A stretch of 64,000 nt of DNA from Zwartia hollandica (GTDB lineage: Bacteria > Pseudomonadota > Gammaproteobacteria > Burkholderiales > Burkholderiaceae_B): NCBI RefSeq assembly GCF_019923725.1, contig NZ_JAHXRI010000010.1, forward strand, positions 396,636 through 460,635. Direction: 5' to 3'. Below are positions 14,836 through 18,895 of this stretch, in pieces. The notes beneath the pieces are model-generated. The model was not told the origin of the DNA and searched no databases. It saw nothing but the letters and a program-made list of their open reading frames with translations. The position numbers and the translations under genes are program-made. Positions within the stretch are counted from its first letter, which is position 1. The number at the start of each line of letters is the position of its first letter.

Positions 14836-15458
14836 TGACTTCAAGCACCTCTGCCAGTAACCTAGCGCCCGTGATGTACGACGCGCTGATACTGGCTGGT
14901 GGTCGAGGTACACGCTTAGCGGGACGAGACAAAGGCTGGATCATGTGGGATGGCCTGCCACTGATAGAGCACACCCTGGCCCGACTTAAAACGCAAACAC
15001 TCGCTCCGACACGTATCTTAATCAGCGCGAATCGCAACATCGATGCCTACCAGCAAACTGGTCATGTTGTGGTGACTGACGAACGCCCAGACTTTATGGG
15101 GCCATTGGCCGGGGTCGAAGCAGGTCTGATGCGGTGCAAAAAAAATCCCTTACTAGTCGTGCCCTGCGATACCCCCTTACTGCCAGAAAATTTGTTTGAA
15201 CGCCTGTCGCAGGCCTTGAGCGAACACCCCGACAGCCCTGCTGCGTTCGCGACCACGAGCGACGGGCCACAACCGTTGTGTTGTTTATTGCGACCATCGA
15301 TCGCTGGCAGTCTTGGTAAATATCTGGATGTCGGCCACGGATCGGTCTTGCGCTGGCTCGAACAGTCTAAGGCTCAGGGCGTTGAATTTAACGACACGCG
15401 AGCTTTTAGTAACTTTAATAATCTTGAAATGTTTGACACTCCACGGAACCCCGCATGA
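14826..15458 (+). CDS. mobA: Molybdenum cofactor guanylyltransferase MobA
   Basis: Adds GMP to Mo-molybdopterin to form the bis-MGD cofactor of the DMSO-reductase family. The nucleotidyltransferase signature [17 protein letters not shown] is complete, followed by [16 protein letters not shown] and VVPCDTPLL. Two starts are possible: ATG 14826, overlapping moaE, or ATG 14874 ([10 protein letters not shown]), which gives a more standard N-terminus. Neither has a strong ribosome-binding site. It overlaps moaC by 4 nt (ATGA). Confidence 0.93.
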
Positions 15459-15937
15459 GCGATCACTTGACACACTTTGATGCGAGCGGCCAAGCACACA
15501 TGGTCGACGTCTCTGCAAAAGCGGAAACGCACCGCCGCGCAATCGCCCAAGGCCGGATTACCATGCAAGCCGCAACGTTTAAGAAGCTCTCTGAGGGCAC
15601 TGCGGCAAAAGGCGACGTTTTGGGTATCGCACGCTTAGCCGGCATCATGGCCGCAAAGCAGACCGGAGCGCTCATCCCGCTCTGTCATCCAATTCCCTTG
15701 ACGCGTGTGACAGTTGAATTTGCGACCGATCCAACGACACACAGCGTGGCCTGCACTGCCACCTCAGAAACAGTCGGTCGCACCGGCGTCGAAATGGAAG
15801 CGCTGACCGCCACGAGCGTAGCGCTACTGACCATCTATGACATGTTGAAAGCGATTGACCGTGGCATGGTGATGGACGGCATCAAGCTTATTGAGAAGCA
15901 TGGCGGCAAAAGCGGTAGCTGGGTGGCGGGGAAGTAG
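15455..15937 (+). CDS. moaC: Cyclic pyranopterin monophosphate synthase MoaC
   Basis: Second Moco step, acting on the MoaA product. Family segments in order: [59 protein letters not shown]-type core and the C-terminal [17 protein letters not shown] with the catalytic Lys. Length 160 is normal. It is the last Moco gene; a diverged copy of its last 26 codons lies at 17149-17229 inside the peptide array. Confidence 0.97.
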
Positions 15938-16189
15938 CCACTAACTTCCGGGCTTTAAATCTACTGCTGCACAAGGTATAAAAACGCTCTTGTCCTAATT
16001 CTGTCCCACTGATGGTCCGGGCATCTAGGTTTTACGGATGAGTGGCGTAGCCTGCTCTCGCAGTTACACGCAAATAATGGAAGTGCTGCTTGACACCAAT
16101 TAAACGTTGCATATACAACGTTCATGCATTTCTTAAAATGGCTTTAACTGGTGTTAGCTCCTGCTACGCCGGTAACCTACTTGGGTACT
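15938..16189 (+). other. Intergenic with promoter, inverted repeat and decayed end of a peptide cassette
   Basis: This stretch holds no convincing gene. It has TTGACA (16090-16095), 16 bp, then TATACA (16112-16117), overlapped by an inverted repeat AACGTTG-6-CAACGTT (16103-16122). The bases TGTTAGCTCCTGCT at 16152-16165 are identical to those at the end of the second peptide gene (17015-17028) and run into the same kind of terminator. It is best read as the remnant (copy 0) of a cassette whose coding part has decayed. Confidence 0.55.
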
Positions 16190-16212
16190 AGCCACCTTCG
16201 GGTGGCTTTTTA
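16190..16212 (+). terminator. Terminator of remnant cassette 0
   Basis: AGCCACC-TTCG-GGTGGCT followed by TTTT: a 7-bp stem with a UUCG tetraloop and a U tract. The same hairpin ends cassettes 1 and 2. Confidence 0.9.
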
Positions 16213-16324
16213 ACGCCCGAGCAGAATCGTTTGAGCAAAATACATTGCATAGGTCGGCACAGCGACGCCGTCGATTTATAGGGGTGGGGGTACGGTGGGG
16301 TGTCGTAGCGCACAAATCATGCAA

Positions 16325-16361
16325 TTATTTGTTGACAACAGTCAAATAACGAAGCTACAAA
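16325..16361 (+). promoter_or_regulatory. Promoter of peptide gene 1
   Basis: TTGACA (16332-16337), 18 bp, TACAAA (16356-16361). An inverted repeat TTATTTG...CAAATAA (16325-16349) overlaps the -35; its right arm is altered in copy 2. The predicted 5' untranslated region is about 93 nt and holds a hairpin ACCCAC-6-GTGGGT at 16423-16440. Confidence 0.6.
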
Positions 16362-16460
16362 GGTAATGCATTGTCAAAATACACAAAGTGTCATTATTTG
16401 ATATTGTTAGCTTGAAATACATACCCACTTAGGCGTGGGTTCTCAACCTTGGAGTCTGAT

Positions 16461-16577
16461 ATGAACGTTGAACTTGAAGAAGTTGTACAGGATGTCTCTG
16501 ATGACGCACTGGAACTGGCTGCCGGTGGTGCGCAGGGAGGGAAGTACAGTGTTGCTTGGAACTACTACTGTGGGTAA
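16461..16577 (+). CDS. Small leader-type peptide 1 (RiPP/bacteriocin-like precursor)
   Basis: A 38-codon gene with GGAG 6 nt before the ATG. Residues 1-23 read MNVELEEVV, an acidic stretch and VSDDALELAAGG; this matches the end of double-glycine leaders such as those of Nif11-type and other peptidase-C39-processed precursors. The remaining 15 residues (AQGGKYSVAWNYYCG) would be the core, with a W-x-Y-x-C motif. It has its own promoter and the terminator at 16630. I do not recognise the family by name; no modifying enzyme or exporter is next to it. Real translation is supported by the conserved reading frame between cassettes. Confidence 0.72.
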   Translation: MNVELEEVVQDVSDDALELAAGGAQGGKYSVAWNYYCG

Positions 16578-16629
16578 CCCTTCAAGTGTTAACTATTGTT
16601 AACTGATAACCCATGCCCACTTGGGTACT

Positions 16630-16652
16630 AGCCACCTTCGGGTGGCTTTTTA
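16630..16652 (+). terminator. Terminator of peptide cassette 1
   Basis: AGCCACC-TTCG-GGTGGCT plus a T run, 53 bp after the stop of peptide 1; identical to the hairpin at 16190. Confidence 0.9.
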
Positions 16653-16771
16653 ACGCCCGAGCAGAATCGTTTGAACAAAATACATTGCATAGGTCGGCAC
16701 AGCGACGCCGTCGATTTATAGGGCTGGGGGTACGGTGGGGTGTCGTAGCGCACAAATCATGCAATTATTTG

Positions 16772-16801
16772 TTGACAACAGTCGAATAGCGAAGCTACAA
16801 A
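16772..16801 (+). promoter_or_regulatory. Promoter of peptide gene 2
   Basis: TTGACA (16772-16777), 18 bp, TACAAA (16796-16801), at the same place as in copy 1. The 5' hairpin ACCCAC/GTGGGT recurs at 16863-16880. Confidence 0.6.
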
Positions 16802-16900
16802 GGTAATGCATTGTAAAAATGCACAAAGTGTCATTATTTGATATTATTAGCTTGAAATACATACCCACTTAGGCGTGGGTTCTCAACCTTGGAGTCTGAT

Positions 16901-17020
16901 ATGAACATTGAACTGGATGAAGTTGTTGTGATGGATATCTCTGATGATGCGCTCGAGCAGACTGCGGGTGGTACGCAGGGGGCAGCTGGGACACACCTTG
17001 GCTGGCCTTACCACTGTTAG
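16901..17020 (+). CDS. Small leader-type peptide 2 (RiPP/bacteriocin-like precursor)
   Basis: A 39-codon gene, GGAG 6 nt before the ATG. The leader (24 residues: MNIELDEVV, then ISDDALEQTAGG) is close to that of peptide 1, with most leader codon changes conservative. The 15-residue core TQGAAGTHLGWPYHC has the same length as in peptide 1 and keeps xQG at its start and W-x-Y-x-C at its end, while the middle is different. It ends in Cys. It has the same promoter and hairpin as cassette 1 and a terminator at 17072. Confidence 0.72.
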   Translation: MNIELDEVVVMDISDDALEQTAGGTQGAAGTHLGWPYHC

Positions 17021-17055
17021 CTCCTGCTGCACCGTTAACCCATAACCTTGGCGGT

Positions 17056-17154
17056 GGGTACTAGGCAAGACAGCCACCTTCGGGTGGCTTTTTAACGCCC
17101 GAGCAGCATCGTTTGAGCAAAATACAGTGCATAGGTCTACACAAACATGCAATT
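17056..17154 (+). repeat. Truncated third cassette repeat, broken by a moaC fragment
   Basis: The terminator and following spacer of the unit are repeated (CGCCCGAGCAGCATCGTTTG onward), but an internal stretch is deleted and the similarity stops at CATGCAATT. From there the sequence is moaC-like. The join falls on GCAATT, against GCGATT in moaC, so a microhomology or homologous crossover is likely. Confidence 0.75.
17072..17094 (+). terminator. Terminator of peptide cassette 2
   Basis: AGCCACC-TTCG-GGTGGCT plus TTTT, 52 bp after the stop of peptide 2. Confidence 0.9.
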
Positions 17155-17229
17155 GACCCTGGCATGGTGATGGACGGCATCAAGCTCATCGAGAAGCACG
17201 GCGGCAAAAGCGGCAGATGGGGTGGCTGA
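17149..17229 (+). pseudogene. Duplicated 3' fragment of moaC
   Basis: Twenty-six codons plus a stop align in frame with the last part of moaC (15851-15930), including [17 protein letters not shown]. Nearly all base differences in the shared core are at third codon positions (for example CTC/CTT, ATC/ATT, CAC/CAT), so the fragment diverged while it was still a working moaC, perhaps in another strain. After KSG it reads RWGG and stops. There is no start codon in frame; it is a relic left by recombination. Confidence 0.9.
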
Positions 17230-17241
17230 ACGTTATTGCTG

Positions 17242-17301
17242 TTGACAGCCTTATAGCCCAAGCCTTATAACGGTATGGTCTTTATAAGTAAACTTATAAA
17301 G
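17242..17301 (+). promoter_or_regulatory. Promoter and operator-like palindrome of peptide gene 3
   Basis: Consensus TTGACA (17242-17247), 18 bp, TATAAC (17266-17271). Just after the expected start site is a perfect inverted repeat, CTTTATAAGT and ACTTATAAAG with 2 bp between (17280-17301). Its position suggests a repressor site or a short 5' hairpin. This upstream region is not that of cassettes 1 and 2. Confidence 0.6.
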
Positions 17302-17319
17302 CTTACTCTTGGAGCCAGT

Positions 17320-17448
17320 ATGAACATTGAACTAGACGAAGTCGTTATGCTTGATGTAACGGACGAAGTACTGGAAAGTGCAGCAAACGATCTGGCAGCA
17401 TTCTCGGCAACATTGTCTGCCGGCTGCAAAAAAGGTTATTGCGACTAA
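17320..17448 (+). CDS. Small leader-type peptide 3 (RiPP/bacteriocin-like precursor)
   Basis: A 42-codon gene with CTTGGAG before the ATG, as in the other two. The leader (MNIELDEVVMLDVTDEVLE) is clearly homologous, but the double glycine is replaced by SAAND, so processing may differ. The remainder (DLAAFSATLS then AGCKKGYCD) has two cysteines and again an aromatic residue next to Cys near the C-terminus. It has its own consensus promoter and shares the terminator at 17464 with convergent hemN. Confidence 0.7.
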   Translation: MNIELDEVVMLDVTDEVLESAANDLAAFSATLSAGCKKGYCD

Positions 17449-17463
17449 GCTCTATGATCGCAA

Positions 17464-17497
17464 AAACACCGCATTTTCAGGATGCGGTGTTTGTTAT
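17464..17497. terminator. Terminator between peptide 3 and hemN (bidirectional)
   Basis: Arms AAACACCGCAT and ATGCGGTGTTT with a 7-nt loop; A/T runs flank both sides, and it lies between two convergent stops. Confidence 0.82.
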
Positions 17498-18895
17498 TCA
17501 AATGACTTTTGAGTATTGCGCGTGTGTCTTTGCATCGCGCAAATGACGATCAAAACGCATCGCGACGATCCGCGCCAAGAAACGACCTCGCGGCGTGATT
17601 CTGATCTCAGACTCGTTGAGCGACACAAGCCCATCAGCGGCCAAGGATTGCAACTGCTCAAGCTCTTGGTCAAAGTATTCGGTAAAGCCGATATTCCAGC
17701 TTCTTTCAAAAATGGGGATATTGATCTCAGACTGACACAACAAATCGTGGATCGCTGCCCGTCGGATCTCGTCGTCGTTGGTCATTGTGAGCCCTTTACT
17801 CAAAGGCAAGTCGTTGCGATCTAGTGCCTCGTAATAGTCCGTTAGTAGCCGATGATTTTGCGCATAGGTATTACCAACTCGGCTAATGGCCGAAACACCC
17901 AATGCAATCAAATCGCAGTCGGCCTGCGTGGCATAACCCTGAAAATTACGCTGCAACGTCCCATGTTCTAGAGCTTGAGCGAGCTCATCTTCAGGTAAAG
18001 CAAAATGATCCATGCCGATGTAAACATAGCCAGCTGCCAATAGCGTATCGACTGCAAGCTTAAGCATCGCGAGTTTAGTGGCTCCGCTCGGCAAAGCAGA
18101 TACCTCGATGCGCCGCTGAGGCATAAAGCGCTTGGGTAAATGAGCATAGCTATACAAAGCAATGCGATCTGGACGCCATTGCAAAACGGTTGCTAGCGTC
18201 GCGCGCATTGTCTCGGTGGACTGCAAAGGCAAGCCGTAGATCAAATCGATATTGATTGAGCCGAATCCGAGCGACCTCGCCTCAGACAGAACCGTTGCCG
18301 TTAGCTCAGCGGGCTGTATGCGATTGACGGCCTTCTGTACCGCAGGATCTAAGTCTTGCACACCCAGACTCATACGATTAAACCCATGTTTAGACAGCAG
18401 GGTTAGTGCACCAGCATTCAGACGCCGAGGATCAATCTCGATAGAGCACTCTGCGGCAGGCAAGAGCTCAAACGAAGCTTGCAACATTTGCATTAACTTA
18501 TCGAGCTGCACGTTTGTCAGGAACGTGGGCGTGCCACCTCCAAGATGCAGTTGGCTCACTGAGGGTGCTTTCGCAAAACGACTGCGTACTAACAGAATTT
18601 CTTTTTGTAAGTAATCAAGATACAAGTCAGCACGCGCACGATCTTTCGTCGCGATTTTGTTACAGGCGCAGTAATAGCAAACCGTATCGCAGAACGGTAC
18701 ATGTATATAGAGCGACAGCGGGGCTTCGGCTATCGTCTCATGCCTCAGGCTCAGCGCATGCTCATATTGCTGAACCACACCGCCCTCTACAAAGCGATCT
18801 GCGGTGGGATAAGAGGTGTAGCGCGGACCGCTCCCTTCATAACGTACGATCAAATCCGCATCAAATTTGACCTGGCTTAAGCTGGCTGCATGCAT
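17498..18895 (-). CDS. hemN: Oxygen-independent coproporphyrinogen III dehydrogenase HemN
   Basis: Anaerobic decarboxylation of coproporphyrinogen III in haem synthesis. The radical SAM motif of true HemN, CDTVCYYCAC (C69-x3-C73-x2-C76-x-C78), is present, with the fourth cysteine that separates HemN from HemW. Other HemN segments are GPRYTSYPTADRF, LHLGGGTPTFL and GFNRMSLGVQD. Length 465 is normal. Its start overlaps the end of the nitronate monooxygenase-like gene by 19 nt, so the two are cotranscribed, with an FNR-like box upstream. Confidence 0.96.
   Translation of the reverse strand: MHAASLSQVKFDADLIVRYEGSGPRYTSYPTADRFVEGGVVQQYEHALSLRHETIAEAPLSLYIHVPFCDTVCYYCACNKIATKDRARADLYLDYLQKEILLVRSRFAKAPSVSQLHLGGGTPTFLTNVQLDKLMQMLQASFELLPAAECSIEIDPRRLNAGALTLLSKHGFNRMSLGVQDLDPAVQKAVNRIQPAELTATVLSEARSLGFGSINIDLIYGLPLQSTETMRATLATVLQWRPDRIALYSYAHLPKRFMPQRRIEVSALPSGATKLAMLKLAVDTLLAAGYVYIGMDHFALPEDELAQALEHGTLQRNFQGYATQADCDLIALGVSAISRVGNTYAQNHRLLTDYYEALDRNDLPLSKGLTMTNDDEIRRAAIHDLLCQSEINIPIFERSWNIGFTEYFDQELEQLQSLAADGLVSLNESEIRITPRGRFLARIVAMRFDRHLRDAKTHAQYSKVI

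Follow-up and report, generated by a model that had tools for sequence, protein, structure and literature searches.

A probable prochlorosin-like lanthipeptide system in freshwater Zwartia: repeat-flanked precursor genes and a candidate LanM encoded elsewhere

Between moaC and hemN of Zwartia hollandica lie three small genes whose products are very probably class II lanthipeptide precursors, matured in trans by a single LanM synthetase. The DNA analysed, referred to here as the window, is a stretch of 64,000 nucleotides (assembly GCF_019923725.1, contig NZ_JAHXRI010000010.1, positions 396,636 to 460,635 of the forward strand); genomes are designated by G numbers (G000 being the window's genome), contigs by C and loci by L. 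As judged from sequence, a single enzyme whose gene lies at another place in the genome probably ties the peptide products into rings, and the whole is best read as a diversity-oriented lanthipeptide system in the freshwater Zwartia group, resembling the prochlorosins known from marine cyanobacteria. Zwartia is a member of the GKS98 freshwater cluster of the Alcaligenaceae (PMC10535154; this and the other PMC articles are cited from excerpts).

A first-pass annotation of the same DNA had reported three short genes of 38, 39 and 42 codons with a common leader, and had seen in them a diversifying set of precursors of ribosomally synthesised and post-translationally modified peptides whose maturation genes are elsewhere. 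Coordinates and alignment agree with the first statement, and the three small genes are real; the second also holds, with homologues that keep the leader and a class II LanM on contig C23. The genes share the leader MN[IV]EL[DE]EVV...[ST]D[DE]xLExxA and differ in their cores (alignment):

16461..16577, plus strand: lanthipeptide-type precursor 1, 38 codons, with the MNVELEEVVQDVSDDALELAAGG leader and a core holding a Ser and a near-terminal Cys
16901..17020, plus strand: precursor 2, 39 codons, with a Thr and a terminal Cys in the core; the gene ends in TGT-TAG
17320..17448, plus strand: precursor 3, 42 codons, with a divergent leader end (ND, no GG) and two Cys in the core

The precursor family

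How widely are such genes found? Homologues that keep the leader, for which the first-pass annotation had proposed a search, do exist: at E 0.001 there are 92 matches, the window genome's own nine included, in 20 of 268 genomes of the family, with a maximum of 15 per genome. Eighteen of these 20 genomes belong to the window's genus (18 of its 32 genomes) and two to another genus, and among 399 genomes drawn from the order no match was found at 1e-5 outside the window's genome. A search of 84,980 species genomes located at least 33 loci, Zwartia vadi IMCC34845 included, a lower bound as it was made with a single exact pattern. Twelve loci (L048, L049, L053, L055, L057, L063, L065, L070-L072, L076 and L077) come from metagenome-assembled genome records titled Bordetella parapertussis, yet they are of the window's genus and the titles are misleading. 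Among viral contigs, 185 stretches fitted a pattern, none of them a relative.

Within the window's genome itself a search at E up to 10 gave nine precursors at four places: three in the window, a three-gene array on C22, two more on C22 at about 824 kb and one on C2 at about 69 kb. The array on C22 is directly adjoined by a tyrosine recombinase gene (Phage_integrase; L009:11641-12780). A Pfam and NCBIfam scan of the nine gave no match above cut-off, and for Nif11 no match at E up to 1, the only weak matches being to other families.

The family combines a constant leader of about 23 residues with a core that varies in sequence and in length (14-45). Of 80 distinct sequences, 76 were kept as complete and four excluded (cut by a contig end or with unknown bases). 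The core holds a Cys together with a Ser/Thr at ring distance in 75 of the 76, against a null of 0.41 (p 3e-28) obtained from random open DNA of the same loci, where the fraction with a Cys was 0.44. In 42 precursors the peptide ends on its last Cys, and in 62 that Cys falls among the last three residues; 33 of the 34 that do not end in Cys still contain one. Median identity is 0.86 for the leader and 0.29 for the core (0.20 for the shuffled core), the core value being raised because the core as cut keeps a frequent GGAQGG. Over 18 pairs whose cores are at least 60% identical, the ratio of non-synonymous to synonymous substitution rates (dN/dS) comes to 0.10 for the leader and 0.45 for the core; by this measure the leader is under purifying selection. 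The pairs were selected for similar cores and are non-independent, a single group of five supplying 10 of them, and two look like chance or paralogous pairs. Core lengths of 14-45 do not fit adenine substitution alone, the kind of change made by a diversity-generating retroelement.

A LanM synthetase, probably acting in trans

Which enzyme would modify these cores? Neighbour clustering, which took in 46 precursor loci, gave as the commonest partner a protein of about 1074 residues, present at 13 loci in 11 distinct places (L031 and L064 are the same place, as are L036 and L078), all in relatives. With its DUF4135 and LANC_like domains this neighbour is, on profile evidence, a class II lanthipeptide synthetase, and the Zwartia vadi copy scores 739 bits against TIGR03897 (lanti_2_LanM; cut-off 304). 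At L047, orthologues of peptides 2 and 1 of the window (core identities of 0.88 and 0.94, respectively) lie about 235 bp downstream of the LanM gene. The window's genome has one DUF4135 match, an open frame of 1078 residues at G000:C23:541118-544354, which is 65% identical to the Zwartia vadi LanM and 63-68% identical to the LanMs of 13 relatives' loci. Its match to the solved LicM2 spans residues 176-1072 (E 3e-68), with the dehydratase and cyclase parts both covered, and CylM was matched as well.

LicM2 and CylM serve one or two substrates. The D..H, DMHxENI and VRxVIRxT stretches of these enzymes are recognisable in the Zwartia-group LanM, whereas their zinc site reads CHG and that of the Zwartia group CCG; LCCG is found in 14 of 16 LanM loci, the other two (L115 and L122) being unscored. 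According to PMC10783134 and PMC10027976, CCG is the mark of the promiscuous ProcM group. The CCG-motif LanM of a prochlorosin-type system is present here, and the enzyme may be promiscuous.

Precursor and synthetase also occur together across genomes. Among the 268 family genomes, 16 have both a precursor and DUF4135, four a precursor only, six DUF4135 only and 242 neither (Fisher p 1.5e-17), and within the genus the corresponding numbers are 15, 3, 1 and 13 (p 3.9e-5); both p values overstate certainty because the genomes are related. The DUF4135-only genomes are G242, of the window's genus, and five of other genera. Among the enzymes that the first-pass annotation had suggested might co-occur with the peptides, a lanthipeptide enzyme was indeed recovered, in the form of a class II LanM; a C39 peptidase match did not turn up in the window's genome. 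Three features of a class II lanthipeptide system are found: a LanM with DUF4135 and a LanC-like domain, a leader joined to a core with Ser/Thr and Cys, and linkage between the two, the last in relatives.

We propose that the single LanM would bind the constant leader in a promiscuous manner and, in the variable core, dehydrate Ser/Thr and form thioether rings to the C-terminal Cys. One enzyme could then yield up to nine different cyclic peptides, since there are nine precursors at four places. The products would be secreted and may serve interbacterial competition or signalling.

Would lanthionine be only part of the chemistry? A LanM working with a lipidating GNAT, in the manner of selidamides, is very unlikely here. 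A GNAT of 301 residues is found in 6 of 16 LanM loci, with matches in 7 of the 32 genus genomes, and nostolysamide clusters pair a ProcM-clade LanM with a Lys-acylating GNAT (PMC13060382). However, the window's genome has no GNAT match, Lys makes up 1.5% of core residues and the Zwartia vadi copy is interrupted. That copy (G267:C11:210156-210739) lies between precursor and LanM and is broken by stops; five relatives have the gene without stops. Along with the lack of a match in plasmids, this led us to reject the GNAT as an obligate partner.

Another neighbour was considered. One precursor, with a GDSKGGQINYTMVKSYAGCNC core in the window's genome, keeps the same position between CoA-ligase-like and AurF-like genes in two genomes (L011:7316-10248 and L070:8292-11242). 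The Pfam match of the AurF-like protein is weak and below cut-off and, in the loci examined, the gene is otherwise found only beside the G241 orthologue; it is therefore not a general maturation enzyme.

Leader removal and points against the LanM reading

How is the leader taken off? The first-pass annotation had regarded leader ends of this kind as typical of C39-processed precursors, with a GG site in peptides 1 and 2. The GG is there in both, and peptide 3 reads ND at that place; in the window's genome three of the nine precursors have GG where the leader is expected to end, the others reading GA, GS, GS, GD, VG and ND. Across the family GG is frequent and not universal. C39 processing itself was not borne out. 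A Peptidase_C39 profile search gave no match in the window's genome, the same search being positive in 8 of 14 controls. Among the 32 genus genomes only G239 and G267 had matches, of 24-25 bits in frames of more than 1300 residues, and G267 is the only one of the 18 precursor-bearing genus genomes with such a match, a weak one.

These results bear on a rival explanation, in which the peptides are class II bacteriocins or microcins that receive no modification: a C39 ABC transporter would cut the leader at GG and export the core in linear or disulfide-bonded form. In its favour, LExAAGG at the end of the leader is similar to double-glycine leaders, GG is common among family members, and the sole NCBIfam match of the nine precursors, that of peptide 1 to a CTB family bacteriocin leader, is far below the cut-off of 32 (13.1 bits, E 0.084). 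Nevertheless, with the near absence of the peptidase, the minority of GG leaders in the window's genome and the strong link between precursor and LanM, such an explanation is highly improbable.

The class II lanthipeptide reading has its own difficulties, and the following points weigh against it. The missing C39 peptidase is one, for Gram-negative class II clusters have been described with LanT and HlyD (PMC10027976); LanT/C39 is usual for class II lanthipeptides, not required by definition. In the window's genome the 20 kb read around the LanM hold no precursor, and the link there therefore rests on trans action. The CCG motif is no proof of promiscuity, because LanMs of single clusters, for example in archaea, also have it (PMC10027976). 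L052, at a contig end, is the sole precursor of the 76 without a Cys. As for co-occurrence, the clearest exception is G244, 94% complete, with 11 precursors and no DUF4135 match, where a lost enzyme, an assembly gap or another enzyme are candidate explanations. G246 (one weak precursor match), G260 and G068 also lack a DUF4135 match, and G242, at 65% completeness, has DUF4135 without a precursor match. In Synechococcus, three of 12 precursor-bearing strains were reported without LanM (PMC10783134).

Relation to known lanthipeptide systems

In its general plan the Zwartia system is like that of the prochlorosins and SyncA peptides, made with ProcM and SyncM in Prochlorococcus and Synechococcus: one CCG LanM for many precursors, a conserved leader, a hypervariable Cys-containing core, genes scattered singly and in tandem, and some strains with precursors but no LanM (PMC10783134, PMC10027976, PMC12328550). 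It differs in its betaproteobacterial host, in a short leader without Nif11 match, in how often the peptide ends on its last Cys, in a constant repeat beside the genes that in many cases encodes Cys and stop, and in that no C39/LanT was found in the window's genome, although a dedicated transporter is suggested to be absent for some prochlorosins too (PMC10783134). As a Nif11 leader was looked for and not found, we do not class the system as prochlorosin and take it to be a variant of diversity-oriented class II lanthipeptides. What is unusual here is the leader without Nif11 match, the lack of a detected LanT, the emptied cassette and the moaC 3'-end repeats bracketing the insertion (both described below).

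In the plasmid collection, the best full-length LanM match is on pNsp_b of Nostoc sp. ATCC 53789 (32% identity, with LCCG shared). Unlike in Zwartia, a Nif11-type precursor stands there beside the LanM, and the cluster has its own peptidase-domain ABC transporter and HlyD. The nostolysamide npu cluster, also from Nostoc, has a CCG LanM with a GNAT partner.

Cyanobacteria are the described source of diversity-oriented lanthipeptides, and estimates place homologous clusters in alpha- and gammaproteobacteria as well (PMC10027976, PMC12328550). In the open-licence literature, supplementary precursor lists being outside this scope, we found no report combining prochlorosin, betaproteobacteria and LanM. 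For lanthipeptides in Alcaligenaceae that literature yields only a species description, and for LanM lanthipeptide precursors Burkholderiales are unmentioned among the best 15 of 108 matches; the excerpt of the Zwartia paper (PMC10535154) does not mention lanthipeptides. Some points count against novelty. A freshwater metagenome study detecting prochlorosin open reading frames (ORFs) is cited in PMC10783134, related clusters exist in freshwater cyanobacteria, and earlier genome mining based on ProcM had turned up clusters whose leaders belong to varied families (PMC10027976). The Zwartia-group LanMs may sit unnamed in a published mining table.

A second case, freshwater betaproteobacterial, with a different leader and a cultured member in Zwartia vadi, bears on why such libraries are kept and how their cores diversify, and on the way in which leaders could be cleaved off when no C39 peptidase takes part. 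The pairing of a CCG LanM with so short a leader might also prove useful for building libraries of cyclic peptides.

Cassettes, flanking repeats and the moaC-hemN interval

The three genes stand in repeated surroundings:

15455-15937: moaC, upstream neighbour of the precursor genes
15851..15923, plus strand: moaC 3' end, proximal copy (repeat search)
16076..16235, plus strand: emptied cassette, a promoter and 5' untranslated repeat joined straight to a 3' terminator unit, with no gene left
16090..16119, plus strand: promoter-like TTGACA-N18-TACAAC of the emptied cassette (pattern match)
16152..16177, plus strand: flanking direct repeat TGTTAGCTCCTGCT..CCGGTAACC, copy of the emptied unit (repeat search, alignment)
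16190..16211, plus strand: putative UUCG hairpin terminator of the emptied unit (repeat and folding)
16332..16361, plus strand: promoter-like element of precursor 1 (pattern match)
16630..16651, plus strand: putative UUCG hairpin terminator of precursor 1 (repeat and folding)
16772..16801, plus strand: promoter-like element of precursor 2 (pattern match)
17015..17040, plus strand: TGTTAGCTCCTGCT..CCGGTAACC direct repeat behind precursor 2, the Cys codon and stop making up its first six bases
17072..17093, plus strand: putative UUCG hairpin terminator of precursor 2 (same sequence as the folded copies, not folded separately)
17149..17221, plus strand: moaC 3' end, distal second copy, 90% identical to the proximal one and absent from the first-pass annotation
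17242..17271, plus strand: promoter-like element of precursor 3 (pattern match)
17464..17492, no strand assigned: putative hairpin terminator between precursor 3 and hemN (folding)
17498-18895, minus strand: hemN, downstream neighbour, convergent

Signals of the kinds ascribed to each gene by the first-pass annotation were seen again: a TTGACA promoter-like element before all three, GGAG ribosome sites ahead of the genes, visible on inspection, and putative terminators, with the UUCG sequence after genes 1 and 2 and another hairpin after gene 3. The pattern TTGACA-N17/18-TAYAAM, composed after inspection of the very sites it matches, occurs four times in the 64-kb window against 0.04 expected by chance, once before each precursor gene and once before the emptied cassette. 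A standard consensus scan of the window was at chance level for promoters (3 against 2.8 expected) and gave two terminators against 1.8 expected, the UUCG and gene 3 hairpins not being among them. On folding, the UUCG hairpins after the emptied unit and gene 1, each followed by T4-5, and the hairpin downstream of gene 3 beat their shuffles (z -3.5 to -3.7). The 300 bp upstream of genes 1 and 2 are 97% identical despite unrelated cores; neither this identity nor the emptied unit figures in the first-pass annotation. Precursors 1 and 2 each have a short CCCAC...GTGGG hairpin immediately ahead of their ribosome site (16423-16440 and 16863-16880); similar letters recur ahead of many family members, and the fold is no better than shuffles (z -0.39).

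That the units are spurious ORFs borne on mobile or extragenic repeats, without a product, is extremely improbable. They are repetitive, repeat-flanked and intergenic, with a core that varies wildly and a patchy presence in 18 of 32 genus genomes, but the leader dN/dS of 0.10, the near-universal Cys and the LanM association all speak against it, as do the signals that surround the genes of the window: promoter-like element, hairpin and ribosome site.

In the emptied cassette the alignment shows the promoter and 5' part running into the terminator unit through the flanking repeat, which suggests a gene lost by recombination between its two flanking repeats. Such repeats are a family trait. A sequence near TGTTAGCTCCTGCTGCGCCGGTAACC or its variant TGTTAGCTATTGCTGACCGGTAACC (up to 6 differences; from -30 to +150 nt of the gene end, or within 200 nt upstream) lies downstream of 54 of 74 precursors and upstream of 50 of 72, and shuffled flanks, one plain shuffle each, had none on either side. 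In 22 cases the repeat starts exactly at the gene's Cys codon and stop; a constant flanking DNA repeat that itself encodes the terminal Cys and stop is unusual here. Three other precursors read the repeat DNA in another frame and have a VLxIA[DE]R tail.

We suggest that the unit in which precursor genes are acquired, lost or relocated is a small cassette with the constant repeat of about 26 bp on its flanks. Because the repeat often supplies the terminal Cys codon and the stop, many open cores would be able to cyclise once they stand between leader and repeat. Taken further, the whole could be a natural combinatorial library organised in cassettes, with a constant leader, an exchangeable core and a flanking repeat that hard-wires the ring Cys and the stop, where cores, all in trans to one LanM, are exchanged, deleted (as at 16076-16235) or added when the repeats recombine, and no C39 exporter takes part; working without that exporter, it would imply a new route of leader removal or export. 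We regard this extension as possible, though rather doubtful.

The interval itself also looks like an insertion. The gene moaC was found in 25 of the 32 genus genomes, and in four with hemN inside the fetched flank the two genes are convergent, their aligned ends lying about 20 nt or less apart in three and about 280 in one; in the window the gap is 1560 bp and contains no ORF of 110 residues or more. The two moaC 3'-end copies bracket the emptied unit and precursors 1 and 2, gene 3 lying outside. Comparison of the proximal and distal ends did not show which of the two is foreign. Integration at a tRNA was rejected, as one tRNA-Ser was found in L010, about 5 kb from the precursors, and none in the five other loci scanned. 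In G241 and G243 a precursor is likewise bracketed by moaC 3'-end copies, and in G243 the LanM itself comes after the second copy; these repeats, which may be attachment sites, vary in length (73, 79 and 160 bp).

Two smaller observations concern moaC. G253, a genome without precursors, has a moaC 3'-end fragment (G253:C16:30190-30342) on a contig other than that of the intact moaC, at the end of the stretch examined, so it may be an assembly copy. In G243 three tandem 41-bp repeats (L076:9086-9208) stand just ahead of moaC.

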